In this document: positions 2,674-53,965 of the stretch, in pieces
How positions within the stretch are numbered: position 1 is the stretch's first letter
Layout of the letters: each line of letters starts with the position of its first letter
NCBI GenBank assembly: GCA_021531755.1
Contig: JADYUK010000002.1
Location: 186,001 to 250,000, forward strand
Direction: 5' to 3'
Source of the DNA: Hoylesella loescheii
Lineage (GTDB): Bacteria > Bacteroidota > Bacteroidia > Bacteroidales > Bacteroidaceae
DNA length: 64,000 nt
Translations under genes and position numbers: made by a program
The notes under the pieces: model-generated
The model's database searches: none
What the model was told of the DNA's origin: nothing
What the model saw: the letters and a program-made list of their open reading frames with translations, nothing else

Positions 2674-3657
2674 ATGAAAGTATCTGAAGTAACCAATCGA
2701 AATATACTGACATATATATTGACGCTCACACTCACATTGTTGGTTTTCTGCTCTTGTGGTAACAAGCAGAAGTCCAAGAATGCCAGAACGGACACTTATG
2801 CATCAGGTGAGATGGTACTCATGTGCGATGAAAGCTTCAGCCCTATTATAGAAGAGGAACTACGCGTATTCCATGCCACATACCCCGATGCGCATGTCAC
2901 ACCACAATACACCAATGAGCTCGATGCTGTCAACGCGCTTATGCAGCAGAAGGTTCATCTCATTATAACAGCAAAGAACTTTACAGAGAAACAGCTCAAC
3001 TACTTCAAGTCGAATAACCTCCAGCCACGCTATTTCCCACTCGGATATGATGGCCTTGCACTTATTTGCAACAACCAGAATACAGACTCATGTATAACGG
3101 TTAATGATGTGAAACGTATCCTCAGCGGACAGGCCAGAGACTGGAATGAGATTAATAAAGGCTCAAAGCTTGGAGTGATTGATGTCGTGTTCGATAACAA
3201 CAAGTCGGCTGCCGTGCATTTTGCTGTCGATTCCATCCTTGGCGGGAAACCTATAAATAGCCCCAATATAACAGCCGTAAAGACCAGTGCCGAAGTGATT
3301 AATTATGTTGAGAAGACTCCCAATGCCATCGGCATCATCGGCAGTAACTGGCTGAACGACAAGCGTGACACAACTAACGTGACGTTCAAGAAGAATATAA
3401 CTGTCATGTCCATCTCGCAGATGGAGACAGCAACAGAGATGAACAGCTGGAAACCATATCAGCTATATCTGCTTGACGGTCGCTATGCCTTCACACGCAC
3501 AGTGTATGCTCTCCTCGTAGACCCCTATCACGGCCTTCCCGTAGGATTCGCCAATTTCCTACAGTCACCAATAGGCCAGAAGATAATTCTCAAATCTGCC
3601 CTGCTACCTTATCGCGGAGATTTGACATTTAGAAAAGTTAACGTAAAGACAGAGTGA
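2674..3657 (+). CDS. PstS-like substrate-binding lipoprotein (PBP superfamily)
   Basis: 327 residues. The N-terminus has a hydrophobic stretch ending in VFCSC-GN, a plausible lipobox (residue 28 or so), so the protein is expected to be a lipoprotein. The mature part reads as a type 2 periplasmic-binding protein of the phosphate-binding (PBP_like_2/PstS) kind: LMCDESFSPIIEEELRVF at the start of the fold, FPLGYDGLALICN in the middle and IGIIGSNW later. No pst permease genes are nearby, and position between tonB and a TPR gene is typical of Bacteroidales, so a true phosphate transport role is doubtful; it may serve the TonB system. Family sure, function not. Confidence 0.8.
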   Translation: MKVSEVTNRNILTYILTLTLTLLVFCSCGNKQKSKNARTDTYASGEMVLMCDESFSPIIEEELRVFHATYPDAHVTPQYTNELDAVNALMQQKVHLIITAKNFTEKQLNYFKSNNLQPRYFPLGYDGLALICNNQNTDSCITVNDVKRILSGQARDWNEINKGSKLGVIDVVFDNNKSAAVHFAVDSILGGKPINSPNITAVKTSAEVINYVEKTPNAIGIIGSNWLNDKRDTTNVTFKKNITVMSISQMETATEMNSWKPYQLYLLDGRYAFTRTVYALLVDPYHGLPVGFANFLQSPIGQKIILKSALLPYRGDLTFRKVNVKTE

Positions 3658-28089: not shown

Positions 28090-28198
28090 GTTTCTTTGTG
28101 TATATTGTATAGTTATGGTTTCCTGTTGGCAATCATGGACATGGCCGCATGTTATGACCAAAATACGTTCGTGGCATACGCTATGCTCTGCATGTTCG

Positions 28199-28352
28199 TA
28201 TAAACACAGACGTTTTCTCGCCATGGCATAGTCCCAAGCAAGCTTGGCTTCCGCCTTCCTCTGTCACGACTCGGGATAGCTCGAGCAAGCTCGGCTCTCC
28301 TCTCGCTGCTCTATCGGTTGGCCTCTGCTCATCTGGCTTATCGAAAACGTTC
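28199..28352 (-). repeat. Copy of the dispersed CGTTTTCG palindromic repeat, in the etfB leader
   Basis: The ends are CGTTTTCTCGCC (from 28211) and TTATCGAAAACGTT. Inside is the small palindrome CCAAGCAAGCTTGG (28234-28247) and a second one, GCTCGAGCAAGCTCGG. The first 50 bases closely match the reverse complement of 47385-47440. It lies between the etfB promoter and start codon. Confidence 0.8.
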
Positions 28353-39325: not shown

Positions 39326-39632
39326 ATCCCAAACAGGCCTTTTGATCCACAAGCCAGTCAGGCTCGTCTGTGTGCCAGAGTGCGGCATCTCCGTCCGGTG
39401 CATAGCGGGCTATGCCGAGACGCAGAGCGACGAAGGGATGGCACACGGAGAGACGTGAGTGATGCCCCCGGCCTCTGCTCACGGAAAGACACGCAACCGC
39501 GGGCTTCGCGCCCATCAACCAGGATACCCTCAGCCTATAAGGTCATCCCCCGAAAGAAACAGCAGCATCACACAGACTGATATCACAGCGGAATCTCATT
39601 CTGTGCAGATAAGGCGGTCATACAGTGGAAAT
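39326..39632. other. Intergenic stretch with no supported gene
   Basis: Only short frames in several phases; no family, RNA or repeat is recognised. Confidence 0.4.
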
Positions 39633-39698
39633 GAGCCGCTCATCCAGTACTTCTGAGCCGCTTATCCAGTGCTTCTGAGCCGCTTATCCAGTACCTTT
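39633..39698 (+). repeat. Three tandem 22-bp repeats
   Basis: Unit GAGCCGCTTATCCAGTGCTT plus CT, at 39633, 39655 and 39677, with two or three differences between copies; a degenerate fourth copy may precede (about 39611). Confidence 0.8.
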
Positions 39699-42386: not shown

Positions 42387-42510
42387 ATTTATGTGTATTT
42401 TCCGGGTTAATGTATAGTCACAGTCTGTGTATATCCCTCTATTGCGCCTCTATTGCGCAAAAGATGTGTGCCCATGGAGATATATCTGGCTTCTCCCTCC
42501 GCCATAGGGG

Positions 42511-42576
42511 AGGGCAGGATTGTTGTCTGCCTGTTGCTTGAGGAGGGCAGGATTGTCGTCTGCCTGTTGCTTGAGG
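42511..42576. repeat. Two tandem 33-bp repeats
   Basis: Copies at 42511-42543 and 42544-42576 differ at one base (TTGTTG versus TTGTCG). They lie between the nitroreductase and porT genes, just after the porT stop on the reverse strand. Confidence 0.8.
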
Positions 42577-42608
42577 GGGGAGCACAGTGATTCCTCCCTA
42601 TGCTTGTG

Positions 42609-44398: not shown

Positions 44399-45076
44399 TT
44401 ATTTCTTCTTGGTGGCTGGGACAGGACATTTCTTCCACACTCCTATGATTTCGCCAACATATTCTGTATGATTGTTGTCTTTGTCTTCACCCTCAGCGTA
44501 CCATTTTTCAACGACATCCTTGTCTAGCCTTTCAAGACTCATAGGCTGAGAGCTGATCTTACGGCACTCGATTATCATATCGCCTTCCTCGAATGCCGGT
44601 GTGCCATTCTCTGTCATACGCAAGGTCAGCCCGCTTCCCTTTATCTTGTCCTCATCCCTGCCCGAGACGCGGCCGAGATATCCATAAAGCATATCGATGT
44701 GTTCTTCACCAAATGTCTCTACAGTGAATGTGTCATATTTGTCCATCAGCTGTTTCGTATACCGGCTGTTCCTGACATATACGGTCAGCACTGCGCGGTC
44801 GCGTCCCCACATGTTTCCTATCTGGCCCCATCCGATGGCCATGGAGTTCATGTCGCCTTGGGTGCCGACAGTGAGGGCAGCCCCATTGCTGAAGAACTTT
44901 ACTGGGTCAACGTCCATTCCCGTTACCTCAACCTTCGTCCAGATGCTGTCACCGACACTCTCTGACGGGGGGCATTGACTCTCTATCGATGACGATGTCA
45001 GACGGAAGAGCTTCACGCACAATATGACGAGGGCTATTCCAAGCACGACGTTGAATAGATAAGATAGCTTGTTCAT
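44399..45076 (-). CDS. Membrane-anchored flavin reductase-like (FMN-binding split barrel) protein
   Basis: 225 residues. An N-terminal hydrophobic helix (LFNVVLGIALVILCVKLF) anchors it. The soluble part has the flavin reductase pattern: PVKFFSNGAALTVGTQGDMN, NSMAIGWGQIG and AVLTVYVRNSRYT, then FTVETFG. Related proteins bind FMN and reduce it or use it in electron transfer. It lies 53 nt after the FMN-binding gene on the same strand, so the two form an operon. An outward-facing role is inferred from the anchor. Confidence 0.85.
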   Translation of the reverse strand: MNKLSYLFNVVLGIALVILCVKLFRLTSSSIESQCPPSESVGDSIWTKVEVTGMDVDPVKFFSNGAALTVGTQGDMNSMAIGWGQIGNMWGRDRAVLTVYVRNSRYTKQLMDKYDTFTVETFGEEHIDMLYGYLGRVSGRDEDKIKGSGLTLRMTENGTPAFEEGDMIIECRKISSQPMSLERLDKDVVEKWYAEGEDKDNNHTEYVGEIIGVWKKCPVPATKKK

Positions 45077-45129: not shown

Positions 45130-46221
45130 TCATATGGATTTGAGCAGCAGTCCTGTCGGGCAGACGAATCTGCAGTATGGCCTTGGCACAAATATGCTGA
45201 GCACTATTGTCACTACGGCGAATGCTGTGAGTGTCCACGAGGCAGACTGCCAGATGAAGACTGCGAACAGTTCATAGTCCATCCATCCGAACCATGCGCC
45301 ACTCCATGCTGCCAGCATGAGTAGCCCCCACAGCACTTTCTGTGCCCATCCAAGAGTCGTCACGACACCATGAGGCAGATGCAGCTTCCTCTTCCGCGCT
45401 TTCCCGGCGAGCTCCTGCACAGACCCCAGCGGACAACACCACGAGCAATAGTGGCCATGCCTGCCGAAGAGGGGATATACAAACGCTACGACAAGCATGA
45501 CAGCGATGGCTGCGAGATGTGGAGAGAGACCATTCGCGACGATATTCGACATTGAGGAGTAGCTCACGAACATACCTGCATAAAATCCGACGACAATTAC
45601 ATTAAGAGCCATCTGGGCTGTGCGGTATCGCTCATTACGCACAACGAGAGGAAGGAATGCAGCCATAAGGGAGACTATGAGCGCAAGGATATGCTTCATT
45701 TCCATGTCTACGCCCTTGCCGCTCTTCAGCTTGTCCTCTGCCGCGGACAATGCCTGGTCGAGTCCTGGGGCATCAAGCGCGCGGTCAATATTCTCCAGCA
45801 CCGCCACGGAAGAGAACGTCGCTCCGCTTACAGCATCAATCTCCGCCTCACGTGCCTCGCTGAGTGTCATGCCGATATACCTCGGTAGAATTCCCTCTCT
45901 CACACGTTCCAGAAAGCTTGGTGTCTCCTCGTTCTCCTCAATATGTATACTGTCTATGCGCCCCTTGCTGACAAATAATGTGAGCGGCACAGGGCCGTTA
46001 TAGCCCTGCACGTCTGCTGCTATCCGTCTTGTGGATATCACTATCGAGCCGTCATCGGCCATTCTGACGTCCATGGAGTCTGGGCATGATGTCTCTGCCT
46101 GGCGCAGGTCATTGCCCAAGAGCCTTCCGTTCTTTGTGACAGTTATCGCCACAATCATAAGCAGGCATGTCAGCAGCATGCAGATGCGCTGTCCCACTGT
46201 GTTCTTCTCCTTATTAATCAT
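45130..46221 (-). CDS. FMN-binding and iron-sulfur membrane protein (NosR/NqrC-like)
   Basis: 363 residues. After an N-terminal helix (about 12-29) comes an FMN_bind domain with the DAVSGAT motif (S132-G-A-T135), where an FMN is expected to be attached covalently to Thr by ApbE. Four or five membrane helices follow (about 177-345), with two Cys motifs, YCSWCCPLG (C259, C262, C263) and YCRFVCPTG (C350, C354), as in NosR and related electron-transfer proteins. It likely moves electrons from an inner donor to an outer-side flavin. It precedes the flavin reductase-like gene. The ATG sits 16 nt after the repeat array. Confidence 0.85.
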   Translation of the reverse strand: MINKEKNTVGQRICMLLTCLLMIVAITVTKNGRLLGNDLRQAETSCPDSMDVRMADDGSIVISTRRIAADVQGYNGPVPLTLFVSKGRIDSIHIEENEETPSFLERVREGILPRYIGMTLSEAREAEIDAVSGATFSSVAVLENIDRALDAPGLDQALSAAEDKLKSGKGVDMEMKHILALIVSLMAAFLPLVVRNERYRTAQMALNVIVVGFYAGMFVSYSSMSNIVANGLSPHLAAIAVMLVVAFVYPLFGRHGHYCSWCCPLGSVQELAGKARKRKLHLPHGVVTTLGWAQKVLWGLLMLAAWSGAWFGWMDYELFAVFIWQSASWTLTAFAVVTIVLSIFVPRPYCRFVCPTGLLLKSI

Positions 46222-46236
46222 GCTGTTATATTAATT

Positions 46237-46600
46237 GGCTTCGCCTTCGTTTCCTCGTCAAGCCAAAGCGAGCAAGCTCTCTTTGGTCTTCTGGCTTAAC
46301 GAAAAGTTTGATAAATTCAGACGTTTTGACCTAGTCTTCTTCCTCCTTGCAAGGCATAGCACAAGCAAGCTTGGTCTCTGCTCTAGCTTCGTTCGTCAGT
46401 TCTCCACTCGGCATAGCGAGCAAGCTCTCTCTGCTCTCGCTTATCGAAAACGTTCTTAAAAGTGCGATTTCTCGCCAAGCCAAAGCGAGCAAGCTCTCTT
46501 TGGTCTTCTGGCTTAACGAAAACGTTGGCTTCGCCTTCGTTTCCTCGCCAAGCCAAAGTGAGCAAGCTCTCTTTGGTCTTCTGGCTTAACGAAAACGTTC
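46237..46600 (-). repeat. Array of palindromic CGTTTTCG repeats in the FMN operon leader
   Basis: At least four units: 46237-46306, 46319-46458 (diverged, composite), 46467-46526 and 46527-46600. On the reverse strand a unit begins CGTTTTCGTTAAGCC, contains the core CCAAAGAGAGCTTGCTC followed by GCTTTGG, and ends GGCGAGGAAACG. Outer arms CGTTTTC and GGAAACG pair, as do GCCA/TGGC, CCAAAG/CTTTGG and GAG/CTC around a CTTG loop, so each unit is one long imperfect hairpin. The array is between the operon promoter and the start codon. Confidence 0.85.
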
Positions 46601-46654: not shown

Positions 46655-46686
46655 GCAAAGATACAGAAAAATAGCATTCGGCACAA
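46655..46686 (-). promoter_or_regulatory. Promoter of the FMN/flavin reductase operon
   Basis: TTG (46686-46684), 20-nt spacer, TATCTTTGC (46663-46655) on the reverse strand. It predicts a 5' UTR of about 430 nt made mostly of the repeat array. Confidence 0.65.
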
Positions 46687-46900
46687 GCGTGTTAAGGTTT
46701 TTTGGGGATTTTGTCACGCTTCTTAAATGTCGTTTTCATAGATGACATCGTACTGTTGCCATTCCCAGTCATCCGTATCCCCCAGTTATAAGCCCACACC
46801 GTCAGGCGTTATGATGCACATCCTCTGACTCTCAACCACCTTTTTCCCTCTGTATCAATCCTCTCCTTATAGTGTTATGGCAGGTATTGCATGAAAAAAA

Positions 46901-46925
46901 GGCGGCCACTCAATGAGCAGCCGCC
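46901..46925 (-). terminator. Terminator of the ferredoxin gene
   Basis: GGCGGC (46901-46906) and GCCGCC (46920-46925), with the reverse strand running into seven T after the stem. Confidence 0.85.
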
Positions 46926-46950
46926 TTTGTCTTTCAATGTGAGGAAAGTA

Positions 46951-47118
46951 TTATCCAAGGCTGATAGCCTCATTAGGACATACATCAGCACATGTACCAC
47001 ACTCTGTGCAGAGGTCTGGGTTGATAGAGTAGATATCGCCCTCAGAGATAGCCTCAGATGGGCACTCGCTAATACATGTACCGCAAGCGATACAATCCTC
47101 GCTAATAACGTAAGCCAT
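46951..47118 (-). CDS. 2[4Fe-4S] ferredoxin
   Basis: 55 residues, starting MAYVISEDCIACGTCISECP. Two classical clusters are visible: C-I-A-C-G-T-C-I-S-E-C-P and C-T-E-C-G-T-C-A-D-V-C-P, separated by a short acidic link. This is a clostridial-type bacterial ferredoxin, a soluble low-potential electron carrier. It has its own promoter (near 47222) and terminator, so it is monocistronic. Confidence 0.97.
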   Translation of the reverse strand: MAYVISEDCIACGTCISECPSEAISEGDIYSINPDLCTECGTCADVCPNEAISLG

Positions 47119-47349: not shown

Positions 47350-47503
47350 ACGTTTTCGATAAGTCAGATGAGCAGAGACCAAGCTTGCTTGGGCTATGCC
47401 ATGGAGAGAAAACGACTGTGTTTATACAAACGATTTCGTTAAGTCAAAAGACCAAAGAGAGCTTGCTCGCATTAGCTTGGCGAGAAATCGCACATTTAAG
47501 AAC
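47350..47503 (+). repeat. Two more units of the CGTTTTCG repeat
   Basis: Unit 1 (47350-47415) starts ACGTTTTCGATAAGTCAGA and ends GAGAGAAAACG; unit 2 (about 47431-47490) starts CGATTTCGTTAAGTC and ends GGCGAGAAATCG. Between them is the phrase GTGTTTATACAAA shared (reverse) with 28195-28211. Confidence 0.85.
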
Positions 47504-53498: not shown

Positions 53499-53965
53499 GC
53501 AAATAATCGGCATATAGATTTATGTTTCGCGGATTATTTTTCGCCAATTTCCTATAATTATAAAGAATTCTCCCTTACCGTATCGTTTCAGCTACGGTTG
53601 CTGAAAAAAAATGTCTTGTCATGAAACCTTCAGTCATCATCCACGCATCAGACCTGGTGAACTGCCAGCTGCATAATACAAGCATGGCAGCTCTATGCCT
53701 TTATCCACAGGCGAGTCCGACAATCTGCCGTCTCCCGGACAGTGGGCTGGGCGATAAGCCTCCCACCACAGATTGGTCGAGCTCTCCACGTATAAGGCAC
53801 GGAGCCGCCATGTTTTTGTTCTTGTCTTTCATGCAGACTACAGCCTGGCACATAGTCTGCTGTGCCACCCATCAGCGGGCATCCACCTCGGTGATAGTCT
53901 GCTGCTGCCACCCGTCAGTGGGCATCCACCTCGGTGATAGTCTGCTGCCAGCCAAGTCTACCCTG
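53499..53965. other. Intergenic region with 43-bp tandem repeats
   Basis: The region holds about 2.3 copies of a 43-bp unit at 53853-53950 (words TAGTCTGCTG, GGGCATCCACCTCGG) and otherwise no gene. Frames crossing it run antisense into the pectinase. Confidence 0.6.

Follow-up and report, generated by a model that had tools for sequence, protein, structure and literature searches.

The window analyzed here, a stretch of 64,000 nt of the Hoylesella loescheii genome (assembly GCA_021531755.1, contig JADYUK010000002.1, positions 186,001-250,000, forward strand), contains an array of hairpin repeats among flavin redox genes. On the minus strand, a ferredoxin gene (46951-47118) lies upstream of the array, and the genes for an FMN-binding/4Fe-4S protein (45130-46221) and a flavin reductase-like protein (44399-45076) lie downstream. 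These gene calls bear out a first-pass annotation of the same DNA, which had placed the start of the FMN-binding gene at 46221 next to flavin redox neighbors. The promoter that it had proposed upstream of the array is likewise recovered as the predicted sequence TTG-N20-TATCTTTG (46656-46686, minus strand), a pure match to the consensus of Bacteroidetes-type promoters. Because this match is accompanied by a predicted terminator-like hairpin behind the ferredoxin gene (46898-46928, minus strand), it is plausible, judging from the sequence, that the array resides inside the leader RNA of the FMN-binding gene.

The array occupies positions 46235-46600 (plus strand) and consists of two-hairpin elements arranged head-to-tail, as read from the sequence and from a covariance model built from 31 of 43 listed units. 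A repeat search of the window recovered direct repeats of up to 71 nt at this position and the model recognized four full units, so that the array exists where it had been described, although its start lies two bases earlier. The first unit comprises a small hairpin read from the sequence (TT-GGC-TTC-GCC-TT, 46235-46247) and a long hairpin (46248-46308, 77.2 bits). The second unit is split: its 5' part, the small-hairpin region plus TTTT of the outer arm (46307-46327), is separated from the remainder by a nested fifth hairpin element (46328-46399) that lies at a TT inside the unit and is followed by TT at 46400-46401. Both the split and the nesting are deduced from uninterrupted copies, and a partial model match at 46354-46384 belongs to the nested hairpin. 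As the model reads it, the long hairpin of this unit spans 46396-46453 (39.3 bits), has a divergent core type and borrows its first bases from the nested element. The third unit combines a small hairpin (TT-CTT-AA-AAG-TG, 46453-46464, sequence reading) with a long hairpin at 46465-46525 (89.4 bits). In the fourth unit, the small hairpin TT-GGC-TTC-GCC-TT is read again (46525-46537) ahead of a long hairpin at 46538-46598 (89.0 bits), and the array terminates with ACGTT. All of these features are given for the plus strand. The previous count of at least four units therefore holds with the nested fifth hairpin added, and the paired segments that it rested on, namely arms of the CGTTTTC/GGAAACG type, GCCA/TGGC, CCAAAG/CTTTGG and a tip that reads GAG-CAAG-CTC here, are all present.

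Three features had escaped the first-pass annotation: the small hairpin ahead of the units, the dispersal of the repeat throughout the genome and a second array nearby (47350-47490, minus strand). The latter, defined by the covariance model and gene calls, contains two units in the opposite orientation between divergent ferredoxin and YaaA-like genes. A further unit of the window (28195-28351, plus strand) was read from the sequence; its tip appears to be split by a 72-nt element (28246-28317) with TT on both sides, and the covariance model matches it weakly at 28259-28350 (17.4 bits). Other tandem repeats are found at 53852-53948, 42509-42580 and 39632-39692 (43, 33 and 22 bp, respectively) and appear unrelated to the hairpin units by eye.

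Element anatomy and compensatory base changes

One copy of the element measures ~78 bp and consists of two hairpins, a small one and behind it a long, imperfect one, with TT on both flanks. The small hairpin has three to five pairs and precedes many units. Of 186 distinct left flanks, 108 contain it at a distance of 2-3 nt from the long hairpin, compared to 105 of 930 upstream control positions and a rate of 10% in shuffled sequences, and the real flanks hold 29 different stems. TT stands directly before the small hairpin in 79 of the 108 cases, and the units that lack it include diverged and interrupted copies. The long hairpin has four parts, namely its outer arm (CGTTTTC/GAAAACG), the GCCA/TGGC step and two stems, one in the middle and one at the apex. 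Its unpaired steps TC and TTAAC are largely conserved, and its stems vary in pairs.

Among the units of the host genome, changes on both sides affect 17 of the 21 pairs (177 cells versus a shuffled mean of 65). The same proportion of pairs is affected in a set of named genomes and viral contigs (143 versus 37.5 cells), and 16 of 21 pairs are affected in seven other sampled genomes (121 versus 35 cells), a set that shares some genomes with the named one. All three counts lie far above shuffles and slid controls; they are inflated by related sequences and derive from model-fitted alignments that lean towards structure. A first, model-free alignment yielded double changes at 8 of 22 pairs (26 cells versus 7.5 in shuffles), with further pair types not above shuffles (14 versus 15.9). 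Since wobble pairs show no strand preference (58 G-U versus 77 A-C, p = 0.12), a DNA hairpin accounts for the compensatory changes no less well than an RNA hairpin would. The flavin-locus array folds better than 100 of 100 shuffles both as RNA (z = -4.19) and as DNA (z = -3.57). One copy (L166:1427-1485) departs so little from a perfect palindrome that one arm seems to have served as the template for the other. Conversion between arms may thus account for some of the covariation, which would then reflect mutation rather than selection.

Dispersal, orientation and insertion sites

The host genome (3.30 Mb in 72 contigs) contains at least 121 units at E<1e-3 in 84 clusters according to the covariance model, a lower bound obtained by scoring 150 of 2038 candidates. 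The array is thus no private leader of the flavin operon. With genes called by a simple script, 81 of the 83 clusters examined are intergenic and fall into 58 codirectional, 12 divergent and 10 convergent gaps, plus one cluster lacking a called neighbor. The gap tally leaves out that cluster, two clusters overlapping called genes (both near the gene start) and one that was not covered (C72:67462); gaps devoid of units number 121 codirectional, 22 divergent and 29 convergent. On contig C11, the share of gaps with arrays is 22 of 206 for codirectional, 6 of 31 for convergent and 4 of 32 for divergent neighbors, and therefore no gene arrangement is clearly favored. This contig harbors 34 of the 84 clusters on 15% of the genome (p ~1e-8).

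Within clusters, the order of units is strict. Each of the 27 multi-unit clusters of the host contains two to four units, and all 27 are head-to-tail. The same applies to 25 of 26 multi-unit clusters elsewhere (seven genomes and the named set); the remaining "mixed" cluster consists of one near-perfect palindrome that gives a match on either strand. With respect to flanking genes, units of the host oppose codirectional neighbors in 44 of 58 clusters (p = 1e-4). The corresponding count in other genomes, 31 of 53, is not significant (p = 0.27) and leaves out 22 locus-edge clusters, 6 clusters overlapping called genes, one matched on both strands and 29 lying between convergent or divergent genes. 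For convergent and divergent gaps, 10 of 10 clusters on C11 oppose the gene majority within 20 kb, and 14 of 23 such host clusters do so genome-wide in 8-kb windows. The GC skew on C11 is flat, at values near zero, and does not discriminate between transcription and replication as the source of the bias.

Beyond the host, units were detected in 60 of 151 genomes of the family and in 17 of 30 genera (own genome included), with one to at least 36 units per genome. Their distribution is patchy, with zero units in four of ten listed congeners. Under stricter filters, 4 of 395 genomes of the class at large match, two of them in the genus of the host (own genome included) and two weak ones elsewhere. 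Named carriers among the matches listed include Xylanibacter rodentium, Prevotella conceptionensis, Leyella stercorea and rumen MAGs. Several units are also present on contigs (L201, L207, L232 and others) of a MAG designated "Bacillota bacterium isolate NALB_7861_17", a label that may be wrong. A literature search covering titles, abstract openings and repeat stretches, with supplements and most subscription journals outside its reach, returned no published description of the repeat family.

Evidence for mobility comes from two empty sites in phage sequences. Viral contigs include four with exact-pattern copies and a fifth with a looser copy. In the phage contig L320 (the contig of L319), a 78-bp element is located between the portal (phrog_156) and terminase (phrog_2) genes. 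Six relatives (L321-L325 and L395; portal identity 95-97%) read AATAA-TT-CTG where L320 reads AATAA-TT-[element]-TT-CTG, and a seventh (L326) also lacks the element and differs in the sequence around the site; this comparison rests on 8 of 80 fetched loci that were aligned. At the second site, L316 and L317 share one copy that splits a short reading frame, which nine contigs (L443-L451) keep uninterrupted at that point. These nine were obtained by searching for the uninterrupted site with a broader pattern, a narrower one having returned none. The insert again measures 78 bp (L317 compared to the site in L445), and its target is GTTC in the orientation of the element. Both inserts are bounded by TT on either side where the empty site has a single TT, a pattern in which a duplication and a TT carried by the element look alike. 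Short viral contigs additionally contain more than one copy of a frame starting with MAKVKYYAKEN, some of them split by the element (L442:2259-2318 and 3536-3595; L316), and this frame looks duplicated and decaying.

The target preference extends to isolated single copies, of which 129 were tallied after dropping units with a neighbor closer than 300 bp or with flanking remnants of another unit, and without using the T's for placing the small hairpin. G precedes the left TT in 63 of 84 readable copies, compared to a background of 100 of 498 (20%), and C follows the right TT in 71 of 110, compared to 129 of 498 (26%). The full GTTC is recovered in 36 of the 72 copies that are readable on both sides, i.e. 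as a preference and not as a rule. In the host, elements of related type appear to split other units at TT, as read by eye at 28246-28317, at 46328-46399 and in further examples. Empty sites in close relatives of the host were not found: the best identity to the FMN-binding protein was 44% among 60 genomes from the genus of the host, and a search of 398 genomes at the DNA level gave short matches only. Of two further comparisons, L400 and L401 did not align around the unit, and L402 against L403/L404 provided the right junction only. Overall, the best reading is that of a REP/MITE-like, non-autonomous, mobile element. The earlier suggestion of a domesticated MITE is thereby upheld as to mobility, given the dispersed copies, the two phage empty sites and the TT flanks, and not as to domestication.

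Regulation or mobility of the array

Besides a domesticated MITE and a possible binding array, the first-pass annotation had considered that the array is a structured RNA regulator. Situated in the flavin-operon leader, such a regulator would sense flavin, iron-sulfur status or a partner molecule. Such a role is suggested by the position of the array between a predicted promoter and a gene start, by the RNA folding score (z = -4.19), by the strong covariation and by the shared orientation relative to transcription of 44 of the 58 host clusters in codirectional gaps. It is nevertheless highly improbable. The unit recurs in 84 host clusters, its orientation bias does not reach significance outside the host (31 of 53), wobble pairs favor neither strand and no Rfam match above the cut-off was obtained, the scan returning one chance-level match under the cut-off that does not lie at the array. 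Among 60 genes downstream of arrays, no Pfam family occurs in more than two members; this listing took genes of at least 200 nt that start within 500 nt of an array and covers 60 of 62, two genes cut by a locus edge being left out. In addition, none of ten full-length homologs of the FMN-binding gene (38-44% identical; ten of eleven checked) carries a unit within ~1.5 kb, the best score being 14.7 bits. Of the two signs that had been named as speaking against regulation, scattering with respect to genes is thus observed, whereas an absence of compensatory changes is not, as they are plentiful. Restriction to one gene class and conservation at homologous leaders, by which cis-regulatory RNAs are recognized, were not found; compensatory base changes were found, albeit without a strand preference of wobble pairs. 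Because the homologs lack the unit, the downstream genes have no function in common, the copies are dispersed and the strands are symmetrical, a flavin- or iron-specific role is not supported. Copies may still alter the leader in which they landed. The case also carries a warning, as strong covariation in an intergenic array alone does not amount to evidence for a regulatory RNA.

The reading preferred here, with a probability of roughly 0.6, is that the array represents a head-to-tail cluster of a dispersed ~78-bp mobile DNA repeat that inserts at TT, preferably within GTTC, and that a candidate HUH-type enzyme acting in trans probably moves in the form of folded single-stranded DNA. Handling as folded single-stranded DNA is suggested by the end hairpins, the fixed orientation to a non-palindromic target, the head-to-tail arrays and the maintenance of structure despite changing letters. 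Such marks are known from IS200/IS605, REP and IS91 elements. The enzyme would act in trans, as the copies carry no gene. After insertion at TT, with GTTC preferred, each junction would regain a GTT with C or G behind it, supplied by the right end of the element, where CG precedes TT. Since GTTC is non-palindromic and the right end re-creates GTT, a new copy could enter the edge of an old one in the same orientation only, so that the array would grow one way and remain head-to-tail. The copies at the FMN-binding gene would then be transcribed in its leader as a consequence of their landing place. A more far-reaching proposal is that the Prevotella group harbors an undescribed class of minimal single-stranded DNA transposons, with 78 nt, two hairpins, GTTC insertion, arrays formed through re-use of their own GTT ends, entry into phages, an enzyme outside the known REP and IS91 systems and lineage-specific, co-evolved hairpin letters; this extension is put forward tentatively. 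If the mobile reading is true, relatives of Prevotella share a common repeat family, unnamed so far as searched, that reshapes intergenic regions, would form part of the leaders and tails of many transcripts and is able to enter phages.

Candidate enzymes and related repeat systems

Several known systems come close to the element. Like REP sequences, it is short, non-coding, palindromic, mostly extragenic and present in many copies, and it could be a REP element of a known kind whose movement depends on a Y1 REP-associated tyrosine transposase (RAYT), for instance of the Bacteroidetes subclasses with atypical or double-foot structures. According to the accessible text of the respective source, a REP is a 20-40 bp palindrome with a GTAG or CGTC tag at one end (PMC3733652). 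In a second source, likewise available in part, TnpA-REP genes of subclass 2.6 have atypical structures on their flanks, of which the genome contains further copies elsewhere, and double-foot REPs as well as atypical structures accompany Bacteroidetes TnpA-REP genes (PMC6006769, covering subclasses 2.4 and 2.6). These structures constitute the closest published lead, and the present element may be identical to one of them. Unlike a REP, it forms a 78-bp insert with ends of the form TT...CG-TT, contains a second small hairpin, lacks the GTAG or CGTC tag and exhibits exact insertion at TT with a GTTC preference. Presence of the enzyme was surveyed in 39 of the 151 family genomes, picked by unit count (21 unit-rich, 18 unit-poor). 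Y1 transposases (PF01797) were detected in 9 of 21 unit-rich and 4 of 18 unit-poor genomes (p = 0.31). Pooled with relatives of a long REP-transposase-like protein of the host, the counts become 16 of 21 and 6 of 18 (p = 0.01), a post hoc comparison that includes weak matches. Against this association, five of the 21 unit-rich genomes contain neither kind (four of the five being drafts, 81-89% complete), and copies are not found flanking a cognate transposase gene, a clear unit lying near Y1-type genes at 1 of 22 fetched loci (L153, 56.5 bits; next best 14.5 bits). A REP of known kind is on balance a doubtful explanation, even with two related proteins in the host, one of which weakly matches a REP transposase model.

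Somewhat less likely still is a minimal rolling-circle element of the IS91 or Helitron type, in which the small and long hairpins would serve as the two ends. Members of the IS91 family have a fixed orientation and a hairpin near an end; here, the right end, adjacent to the target, is formed by a hairpin and the arrays are head-to-tail. The preferred GTTC is, moreover, the IS91 target named in the consulted part of PMC7758954. The element contains no transposase gene and IS91-type transposases were detected in 0 of 39 genomes, a survey that carries no weight because the control genomes gave no signal either. A classical MITE, mobilized by a DDE transposase that duplicates a 2-bp TT target, would agree with the size, the copy number, the dispersal, the absence of genes and the TT on both sides at both empty sites. 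This explanation is improbable in view of an orientation that follows the non-palindromic G-TT-C and of the arrays, as 0 of 27 in the host are inverted and a DDE transposase is not expected to impose such an order. Furthermore, no terminal inverted repeats were seen in the insert by reading, and the left end is a small hairpin outside the long palindrome. Integron attC sites, which are defined by GTTRRRY/RYYYAAC inverse core boxes around G-TT, were rejected as a further candidate: their consensus wants a purine after the right TT, where C is found in 71 of 110 isolated copies.

Other systems share single features with the repeat. In IS200/IS605 elements, each of the two ends has a hairpin close by, both on one strand, and insertion takes place 3' of a short fixed target. 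End hairpins on one strand and a short target are common to both, whereas the present element has no transposase gene, dissimilar end hairpins and a different target. Porphyromonas gingivalis, which belongs to the same bacterial order as the host, contains the repeat BrickBuilt. This MITE is described, in the portion of the source at hand, as having 23-nt direct repeats and inverted ends like those of known insertion sequences (PMC4596501). Both are non-autonomous, intergenic and organized in tandem; unlike BrickBuilt, the whole element is the repeat here, no terminal inverted repeats were seen and no parent was found beside the arrays. Palindromic intergenic motifs have also been reported among candidate structured RNAs of the human microbiome (250 reported, 20 without a terminator), some of which were suggested to be REP sequences (PMC8040213, accessible text). 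The likeness of these motifs to the element is one of description, and they may overlap with its family.

With 78 nt, exact ends, a preferred target and natural empty sites, the repeat offers a clean system for finding the enzyme that moves it. A partner was found neither in the Y1 and IS91 surveys of the 39 genomes nor, by eye, among the neighbors of the arrays. In 100 regions of eight genomes, eight clusters of neighboring genes recur in at least three genomes (four at most), and in 120 other loci (116 bacterial and four viral), 19 clusters recur in at least three loci (eight at most); no transposase was recognized by eye in either set. The two related long proteins of the host are encoded in L031 (G000:C1:84335-85474) and at G000:C14:33106-33993, with frames of 387 and 365 aa. 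The former distantly resembles REP-associated tyrosine transposases, and one of the two has a weak NCBIfam REP transposase match (30.1 bits at a cut-off of 80). As a partner enzyme, the L031 protein was rejected, given that no unit occurs in its flanks (the place also listed as L405) and that its gene is followed by tandem repeats of another kind, CCGCTTGGCGTTC. The Y1 transposase of L153 (1402-1857, genome G108) is 151 aa long, with the repeat unit located ~280 bp from its 3' end, and by its motifs DHVH, WQ and YIERQREHH it resembles subclass 1.2 as characterized in the available text of PMC6006769.
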